Of a DNA stretch of 64,000 bases, positions 12,250 through 14,736 are shown piece after piece. Below the pieces are notes generated by a model. It made no database searches and was not told the origin of the DNA. It worked only from the letters and a program-made list of their open reading frames with translations. The stretch's first letter is position 1. Each line of letters begins with the position of its first letter. The position numbers were made by a program, and so were the translations under genes. Origin of the DNA: Candidatus Aenigmatarchaeota archaeon (GTDB lineage: Archaea > Aenigmatarchaeota > Aenigmatarchaeia > QMZP01); NCBI GenBank assembly GCA_016198585.1, contig JACQII010000001.1, forward strand, positions 1 through 64,000, read 5' to 3'.

Positions 12250-14541
12250 TCAGCTGGGTGCTGCTCCGCCCTCGGGGATGAATTCGCAGACGCCGCCGAC
12301 GCACGCCGCTTCCTTCGCGCCTATCGTCGCGTCTTCCTTCTCGTAGATCACGATGTTGGCGAAATCGATCGGCGGCGACTTCGCGGCAAGCTCCGCGTAC
12401 TGCGCCTCGGTGATTTCCTCGTAAGGAGCGAGCTGGTACACATGGGACGACCTGGGCAGGAAGGCGAGGCCGCCGATGATGTTCCAGTTCTTGTAGAGCC
12501 AGTTGGCAGTCCCGAGCCATTCGTCGTCACTGACGGAGATCGTAACCGATGGGTTGTGCTCACAGTAGTTCTCCTTGACCATCTTCCAGTGTTCCAGCTG
12601 GTCGCGCGCGGTCAAGTCATCCCGGAACACCGCGTTCTCGGGGGCCTTTACCGGGAACTCCAGCACGTAGGTAGAGGCAGTGCCGTCGGCCTGGCCAACC
12701 TCGGGATGGAAGGGGAACTTCTGCTCCTTCAGCATGAGGAAAAGCGGGTCGTGCGCCGCGATCCGGATCCGGCGGATGTAGTATTTCGCGTGGCGGGCAT
12801 GCATGCCAGACGCCGCATCGACCAGTTGCGAGACCGTCCCGGAAGGCTTGACGCAAGTGATGCAGGTCGAGGCGTTGATGCCGAAGCGGGCGGCGTACGT
12901 CTTGTTCACCTCGTACGCGTGCTCCCGCAGCTTGCGGAGGGTCTCCGGGTTCCGGACAGCCGGGCAGTCCCATTGGCCGGTGAGCGAGACCCCAAGGAGC
13001 CGCTCCTCGTCGCAGTTCCTCTTCCAGTCAGGGGAAAGATAGGGGAAGGCCGTCAGCGTCGACTGGTAGGTCCCCAGGATCGTGGCGATGCGCATCTTCT
13101 CGAGCAGCGTCTCCTCCGTGTCATCATCGCGGCAAACCACCTCGGTGAGATTGCAGAACTGCTTGCTTCTCAGGATGATCTCACCACATGGGTTCGTGCC
13201 GGTCATCTCCGCATGGTCGCCAAGCCGCTCCCACCGACGGAGCGGGAGCTGGTGGCGGAGGCCGTCACGGTTGAAGATCCCGCGCTCACCTGTCCCACTC
13301 TTCGCCAAGGAGAGCCACTCTTCGAGGAACTGCGTCGCGCTGGGTTTCTGCAGGTAGACCGCCGAGTTGTTGGCCATCGCGCGCTGAGGTTCTGCCAGGT
13401 AGAACTGGCCGGTTTTCGCGTTGCGCATCTGCTCGTCGTCGAGGTCGGAGAGGGAGATGAGCGCCGTGCGGCGCACCCCGCCCATAACGACGACTTCGCC
13501 GATCTTGCAGACGATGTCATGGACGTCGATGTTGCTCAGGCGCCTACCCTGCGAGGCGAGGATCTTCTGGCGGGCAAACTGTAGGAGGTTCCGGAGCGGC
13601 TCCGGCCCCGAGCTGCGGCCTCCCATGGTCCGGAGGCGCGAGCCGGCCGGGCGCACGTGGGAATAATCGAATTCGATGTCCTTCCCGCTGAACCAGGTCA
13701 TCAGGCCGAGAGTGAGGGCGTCGCACCACCCTTCCTTGCTGTCCAGGATGACGTGCGCAGGCAGGTATTCGCCGGTCTGGCGCCTGATCAGGGGGAGTTG
13801 CTGGACCGCTTGGCTCTCCACGGAGAAGCCGACGCCGCAGCCGCACATCGAGAGGTACATGATCTCGGCGAAATCCGTGAGCTTCGTGGGCGCGATGTAC
13901 GAGCAATTGTAAGCGCAGACGTTGGAGGTCCGTGCAGCCTCGCCCGCGCTCCAGAGCAGCCGCATCGACGGCATCGCGCGCTGGCTGAGGATGAACTCGC
14001 GAATTTCCTGGTACTCGCCTGCTGTGAGCTTCTCGCCAAGATTTTCCCGCATGAATCCCATGTATCGGTCGACACTCTCGATCCAGGTCTCGCGCCGGCC
14101 TTCCTCCTCGATCCAGCGGGAATACGTCCGGTAGTAGACAAATTCAGCGAGCGGGTTGCGGAAGTATTGCCTGGATTCGCGCACCAATTGCCGGACCCGA
14201 TCGGGGACGTGGCGGGTTTTTTCCCGGATCTTGGCACGCTCGTTCCGGTAGAGGATGTATGCCTTGGCGGTCCTCGCATAGCCCGCCTCGATGAGGACCT
14301 TCTCCACGATGTCCTGGATGCCTTCCACGGTCGGGATGGTGTTCTTCGGAGTCTGCTGCTCGAGGACCATGATGACGTCGTCGGCCAGCTTCTCGGCGAT
14401 CAATCGGTCGCTGCCGCCGACGGATTGGGCGGCCTTGAAGATGGCGTTCACGACCTTCTCGCGGTCGAACGAGGCAATGGAATCGTCCCGTTTCTTGATT
14501 TTTGTGATCCGCGGCATCACCAAGGTCGTGGGGGTGTCCAT
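12250..14541 (-). CDS. nrdJ: Adenosylcobalamin-dependent (class II) ribonucleotide reductase
   Basis: The 763-residue enzyme begins with an ATP-cone (about residues 10-100) and continues with the 10-stranded reductase barrel. Visible active-site parts are SNVCAYNCSYI near residue 209, MTGTNPCGEIILRSKQFCNL near 446-463 with the thiyl-radical Cys, and the redox pair CVGGVC near the C-terminus. There is no glycyl-radical or diferric-site signature, so B12 dependence is inferred from family resemblance and from the adenosyltransferase in the operon. The start at 14541 is 25-28 bp from AAAATATAG, a leaderless spacing; MPRITK eight codons later is the alternative. Confidence 0.92.
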   Translation of the reverse strand: MDTPTTLVMPRITKIKKRDDSIASFDREKVVNAIFKAAQSVGGSDRLIAEKLADDVIMVLEQQTPKNTIPTVEGIQDIVEKVLIEAGYARTAKAYILYRNERAKIREKTRHVPDRVRQLVRESRQYFRNPLAEFVYYRTYSRWIEEEGRRETWIESVDRYMGFMRENLGEKLTAGEYQEIREFILSQRAMPSMRLLWSAGEAARTSNVCAYNCSYIAPTKLTDFAEIMYLSMCGCGVGFSVESQAVQQLPLIRRQTGEYLPAHVILDSKEGWCDALTLGLMTWFSGKDIEFDYSHVRPAGSRLRTMGGRSSGPEPLRNLLQFARQKILASQGRRLSNIDVHDIVCKIGEVVVMGGVRRTALISLSDLDDEQMRNAKTGQFYLAEPQRAMANNSAVYLQKPSATQFLEEWLSLAKSGTGERGIFNRDGLRHQLPLRRWERLGDHAEMTGTNPCGEIILRSKQFCNLTEVVCRDDDTEETLLEKMRIATILGTYQSTLTAFPYLSPDWKRNCDEERLLGVSLTGQWDCPAVRNPETLRKLREHAYEVNKTYAARFGINASTCITCVKPSGTVSQLVDAASGMHARHAKYYIRRIRIAAHDPLFLMLKEQKFPFHPEVGQADGTASTYVLEFPVKAPENAVFRDDLTARDQLEHWKMVKENYCEHNPSVTISVSDDEWLGTANWLYKNWNIIGGLAFLPRSSHVYQLAPYEEITEAQYAELAAKSPPIDFANIVIYEKEDATIGAKEAACVGGVCEFIPEGGAAPS

Positions 14542-14560: not shown

Positions 14561-14576
14561 GCACTATATTTTGTGT
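14561..14576 (-). promoter_or_regulatory. NrdR box 1, overlapping the nrdJ TATA box
   Basis: GCACTATATTTTGTGT (plus-strand reading) agrees with the bacterial NrdR-box consensus acaCwAtATaTwGtgt at about 14 of 16 positions. It contains the TATA-like core AAAATATAG of the nrdJ promoter, so repressor binding would compete with TBP. Confidence 0.7.
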
Positions 14577-14592
14577 TGCCCAAGATCATGGG

Positions 14593-14608
14593 ACACAATC
14601 TATTGTGG
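14593..14608 (-). promoter_or_regulatory. NrdR box 2, tandem partner
   Basis: ACACAATCTATTGTGG matches the NrdR-box consensus at about 14 of 16 positions. It starts 32 bp from box 1 (16 bp between the boxes), about three helical turns, the spacing known for bacterial tandem NrdR boxes. A second TATA-like CTTTATAAGG at about 14634-14643 (minus strand) would start transcription close to this box. Confidence 0.7.
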
Positions 14609-14736
14609 TCCGCACCCTCCTATTGGGAGGCCACCCTTATAAAGATGTATGATCGGCGGGCATATACTTTGCAACCTCGCGGTCAGGATACAAGTTTCTT
14701 TGCACTGTTATGGGACGAGAGAGGCGGCGAAAGCGG

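Follow-up and report, generated by a model that had tools for sequence, protein, structure and literature searches.

Gene organization and paired boxes

The window, the whole 64-kb stretch of DNA that was analysed, belongs to a 0.94-Mb assembly (genome G000) of Ca. Aenigmatarchaeota that is 76% complete. It contains five minus-strand genes packed with overlaps of up to 10 bp and gaps of at most 31 bp, headed by two 16-bp boxes and a predicted TATA box. In the direction of transcription the features are:

14636..14643, minus strand: predicted TATA box TTTATAAG, preceded by CATACATC; 10.5 bits in a BRE-TATA model
14593..14608, minus strand: putative gene-distal NrdR box, forward letters ACACAATCTATTGTGG, minus strand CCACAATAGATTGTGT; 14/16 matches to the consensus
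14577..14592: spacer of 16 bp between the boxes, which are three helical turns apart centre to centre
14561..14576, minus strand: putative gene-proximal NrdR box, forward letters GCACTATATTTTGTGT, minus strand ACACAAAATATAGTGC; 15/16 matches to the consensus
12250..14517, minus strand: nrdJ, probable adenosylcobalamin-dependent (class II) ribonucleotide reductase (RNR) with an N-terminal ATP-cone; TIGR02505 (RTPR) 293 bits, PF03477 75.7 bits
11629..12237, minus strand: metallo-beta-lactamase-fold (MBL) hydrolase gene; PF13483 57 bits
11031..11597, minus strand: cob(I)yrinic acid a,c-diamide adenosyltransferase gene, PduO type; TIGR00636 179.5 bits
10609..11040, minus strand: NUDIX hydrolase gene; PF00293 65 bits
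10154..10606, minus strand: nrdR, predicted Zn-ribbon and ATP-cone repressor, last gene of the operon; TIGR00244 201.5 bits (cut-off 124.65)

Protein family scores bore out the first-pass annotation of NrdR and a cofactor-making enzyme, encoded together with a reductase that is probably of the B12 type. RTPR was the best family for the reductase, though its 293 bits fall under the 340-bit cut-off, and the operon carries an adenosyltransferase; we regard the enzyme as class II-like. Its gene probably starts at ATG 14517, which aligns with the gene of the relative G002, or at ATG 14541. The PduO-type adenosyltransferase is the maker of the reductase's cofactor. The nrdR product is full length, with a Zn-ribbon (PF22811, 68 bits) followed by an ATP-cone (PF03477, 88 bits), and 147 of its residues align with the E. 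coli NrdR structure 9gex (E = 5e-44). Both CxxC motifs are present, as are K12, D15, R17 and RRRR26-29; in Streptomyces coelicolor NrdR, D15, R17 and the arginines contact DNA (PMC9110341). The third ATP-cone of genome G000 forms a short stand-alone frame (L203, G000:C7:40008-40238), with genes for a membrane protein and a NUDIX-like protein nearby.

Boxes were scored against ACACWAWATWTWGTGT, the NrdR-box consensus. E. coli upstream regions scored on the same scale served as a control for this consensus and gave 24/32 (nrdHIEF) and 26/32 (nrdD). Across the 64-kb window the proximal and distal boxes were the top two single sites and, at 29/32, the top pair. Among 60 simulated windows of the same dinucleotide content, searched at the same spacing, 58 had no pair of at least 22 and two reached exactly 22. 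A strict pair pattern matched once in the whole assembly, at 14561-14608. The first-pass annotation had given each box about 14 matches, with starts 32 bp apart; the coordinates and offset were right, and the gene-proximal box matches slightly better. The paired boxes are a confirmed observation. An NrdR operator calls for two consensus-matching boxes with a spacer of 14-17 bp, as found here; the commonest bacterial spacer is 15-16 bp (PMC12051234). This agreement in sequence supports reading 14561-14608 as NrdR boxes of an archaeon, placed before a class II-like RNR operon.

Conservation of the boxes in relatives

Pairs were sought within 350 bp upstream of genes in the 30 genomes of the order that have an NrdR Zn-ribbon. 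A pair of at least 24/32 preceded nrdR or a reductase gene in 26 of the 30, and one of at least 22 in 29; shuffled sequences reached 24 in 0.27% and 22 in 6.7% of cases. The pair was absent from G009, where the Zn-ribbon is present, and weak (22-23) in G013, G036 and G038. Of the two boxes the proximal one is better conserved among relatives. When 156 genomes of the phylum were scanned without bias for the strict pair pattern, 19 sites emerged, one per genome, and 17 of these precede nrdR, fused nrdD or nrdJ. The reversed pattern matched in five of the same 156 genomes. Two strict pairs lay away from RNR genes and were set aside as chance matches, one near ribosomal-protein-like genes (G053) and one within the gene for a GTPase resembling a translation elongation factor (G118).

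Box pairs also track NrdR itself. None was found before nrdD in any of seven archaeal genomes that gave no hit to the NrdR Zn-ribbon (best scores 19-22). No pair was found before nrdD at L131 and L136, where NrdR is carried. Three operons with nrdJ in first place were read in the family (G000, G004 and G002); each has a pair, scoring 29-30/32, and combines nrdJ, an adenosyltransferase-like gene and nrdR. The adenosyltransferase-like frames of G004 and G002 were recognized by sequence similarity and a NUDIX-like frame in the G004 operon by eye. The G004 operon also has a 146-aa open frame between nrdJ and the adenosyltransferase gene (L201:1854-2291) that matched nothing in Pfam or NCBIfam. In the majority of the remaining genomes of the order, the gene right next to the box pair is nrdR or a fused gene, and the reductase comes after it. 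The sole genome of the same genus, G001, is too incomplete for the closest comparison, its nrdR being cut by a contig end and nrdJ not found. The boxes thus lie at RNR promoters and are kept where NrdR is kept, both in the order (26/30) and across the phylum (17/19), and relatives that retain nrdR have not lost them as a rule.

The same results bear on whether the boxes are chance AT-rich palindromes. Their core is AT-rich, and AT-rich promoters often contain short palindromes. Shuffled, simulated, reversed-pattern and whole-genome tests nevertheless all contradict a chance origin, and conservation refutes it, leaving this explanation with a negligible probability.

The window reductase (12250-14517) has an ATP-cone ~48-61% identical to those of relatives. 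Its catalytic part shares only ~25% identity with the enzymes of G004, G002 and G009 and is closer to the RTPR-like enzyme of G031 (27-30% over most of the length). From these alignments the enzyme looks chimeric, with a cone near those of relatives and an RTPR-like core. The catalytic core may have been exchanged while the regulatory parts (boxes, cone and nrdR) stayed.

Promoter architecture

A combined BRE and TATA model was built on 23 promoters of the order and phylum, with nrdJ promoters left out. In the window, TTTATAAG at 14636-14643 ranked 13 of 127,966 positions. This TATA-like element sits 27 bp upstream of the distal box, and G004 and G002 share the layout, with TATA upstream of the boxes. 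Among 27 promoters from the order and phylum, 19 carry TATA octamers ahead of the distal box, compared to a shuffle mean of 4.8 and a maximum of 10. Their distance from the distal box varies, mostly between 10 and 36 bp, and one common block point is not assured. The usual archaeal distance from TATA box to start site is 25-27 bp. At this spacing the window transcript is predicted to begin at ~14612-14616, with the boxes at about +5 to +53. Because the likely TATA box lies 27 bp upstream of them, the boxes would span the predicted start site and the first stretch of transcribed DNA.

The first-pass annotation had instead placed the TATA box within the proximal box, where NrdR would exclude TBP; on this reading the transcript would be leaderless. 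Its reading of the letters stands, in that the box core at 14565-14572 is AAAATATA. A start 25-27 bp downstream of this core would fall close to ATG 14541, and the distance from the in-box core to the ATG is similar in G004. As a promoter, however, the core scores only 0.4 bits against 10.5 bits for the upstream element, and in-box and upstream scores differ alike in G004 (0.0 and 9.2 bits) and G002 (2.7 and 6.2 bits); we rejected it as the likely promoter on these scores. An AT-rich core is moreover common to every NrdR box. A Shine-Dalgarno-like GGAGG between the proximal box and the ATG of G002 counts against a leaderless in-box promoter and fits a start site upstream of the GGAGG. In relatives with nrdR-nrdD genes, too, the TATA box precedes the distal box, for the most part by 10-36 bp. 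A working TATA box inside the proximal box is unlikely on this evidence.

The boxes might also be a passive relic of a bacteria-derived operon, unbound or bound by another factor. NrdR is best known from bacteria, and in haloarchaea its gene moved together with bacterial class I RNR genes (PMC3019208). Boxes retained in divergent genomes, behind archaeal TATA elements, are hard to reconcile with a mere relic. They occur before both class II and class III genes and with separate as well as fused NrdR, and no pairs were found where NrdR was absent. We consider this explanation highly improbable.

Proposed mechanism of repression

We consider it very probable that the two boxes are an operator for the NrdR whose gene closes the operon, and this NrdR would clamp the DNA over the start site. 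In the presence of dATP and ATP, bacterial NrdR forms a tetramer in which two Zn-ribbon pairs grip two boxes spaced by three turns and put a sharp kink in each box (PMC9110341). Since D15, R17 and RRRR are kept in the window NrdR, the same nucleotide-controlled clamp is expected of it. The nrdR gene would then lie within the operon that its product represses, together with the gene for the cofactor-making enzyme. A clamp on the paired boxes would occupy the start site and the initial turns of transcribed DNA, where it would stop recruitment of RNA polymerase, promoter opening or escape, and not TBP binding. Archaeal repressors are known that exclude TBP/TFB or prevent RNA polymerase recruitment (PMC5569661). 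For the present promoter, a block of polymerase recruitment, opening or escape is probably a better reading than TBP exclusion. The earlier proposal that NrdR blocks TBP found no support, the likely TATA box lying outside the boxes.

NrdR-NrdD fusions in relatives

The 30 Zn-ribbon genomes of the order have exactly one Zn-ribbon above cut-off apiece. It belonged to a separate NrdR in 20 genomes and was fused to the ATP-cone of NrdD or an NrdD-like protein in nine; in the remaining genome, G011, a whole NrdR is in frame with NrdD. Fused and separate NrdR occurred together in no genome of the order, an absence that is a statement about assemblies, as the genomes are incomplete MAGs. The G005 fusion illustrates the short form, with PF22811 (1-40), PF03477 (49-138) and PF13597 (NRDD, 167-728) in one open frame, all above their cut-offs. 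Its gap between Zn-ribbon and cone is about equal to that of a separate NrdR.

Short fusions, with the Zn-ribbon directly before the NrdD ATP-cone, were found at L196 (G005), L029 (G007), L028 (G016), L031 (G006), L032 (G020), L093 (G024), L097, L223 and L227. They usually have a box pair in their own promoter, and no separate NrdR was found in the genome. Full-length NrdR is in one frame with NrdD at L198 (G011), L193 (G057), L195 (G061), L192 (G051), L224-L226, L228 and L229, possibly as an intermediate between neighbouring genes and the short fusion. Fused genes mostly retain box pairs, with none at G009 and a weak one at G013. Beyond the order, fusions of either length were seen in the Woesearchaeota-containing phylum (L223-L229; no pair at L226 and L229), in other Aenigmatarchaeota (G051, G057 and G061) and in one Nanohaloarchaeota genome (L097). 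The NrdD tree requires at least three changes for each fusion type. Intein-like insertions were seen in nrdD at L031, L032, L197 and L200. At L194 (G085), NrdR is in frame with a DHH-phosphoesterase-like domain, recognized by eye, and not with a reductase.

The predicted structure of the fused Zn-ribbon and cone of L093 (pLDDT 76.5, pTM 0.51) retrieved NrdR chains first from the PDB, but with a TM of about 0.5 and an rmsd near 8 Å, as the model leaves uncertain how the two domains are placed relative to each other. The model may be taken as support for domain identity only. Taken together, the fusion, the box pairs upstream and the lack of a separate NrdR predict a reductase that represses its own gene. 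We lean, with some reserve, towards the reading that in several DPANN the class III reductase acts as its own transcription repressor through the fused Zn-ribbon. In the short fusions the single ATP-cone would sense dATP for shutdown of both enzyme and gene, and a dATP-bound tetramer would present Zn-ribbons to the two boxes. The NrdD of Prevotella copri assembles into tetramers with ordered cones when dATP is bound (PMC11226230), and by analogy this geometry could present the Zn-ribbons of the fused forms.

Distribution and comparison with known systems

Published accounts call NrdR abundant among bacteria and rare among archaea (PMC9110341, PMC12176259). We detected its Zn-ribbon in 76 of 156 Aenigmatarchaeota genomes, in 272 of the 371 genomes sampled from the Woesearchaeota-containing phylum and, over cut-off, in 19 of the 116 Thermoplasmatota genomes sampled; many of the promoters that we read have box pairs. 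The counts for the last two groups, the phyla of G157 and G161, are at odds with rarity in archaea. Our literature search found no report of archaeal NrdR boxes or NrdR-NrdD fusions, which does not prove their absence elsewhere. One small repressor appears to serve both sigma-type and TBP/TFB-type promoters, making the blocked step of initiation directly testable. The fused forms further suggest an enzyme that turns off its own gene with the same sensor that turns off catalysis.

The closest parallels are the bacterial NrdR systems of E. coli, S. coelicolor and Listeria monocytogenes, which share the Zn-ribbon and ATP-cone repressor (PMC9110341, PMC12051234), the two 16-bp boxes with a 15-16 bp spacer before RNR operons, and the DNA-contact residues; in S. 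coelicolor nrdRJ, as here, nrdR lies inside the RNR operon. Unlike these systems, the window has a predicted TBP/TFB-type promoter with TATA upstream of the boxes, and its operon adds genes for a cobalamin adenosyltransferase, an MBL-fold protein and a NUDIX protein. P. copri NrdD resembles the fused relatives in its ATP-cone and NrdD architecture but differs in that its cone regulates catalysis and no DNA-binding Zn-ribbon is described (PMC11226230). Haloarchaeal nrdR-nrdB-nrdA operons likewise set an archaeal NrdR beside RNR genes; they encode class I RNR, some on plasmids or a second chromosome, and the available portion of that report describes no boxes (PMC3019208). The present set instead comprises class II and class III RNR, in DPANN and Thermoplasmatota. 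Like Mdr1, LrpA and TrmB (PMC5569661), NrdR would repress an archaeal gene by sitting on its core promoter or start site, but it is a Zn-ribbon/ATP-cone protein and would use a paired-box clamp controlled by dATP and ATP.
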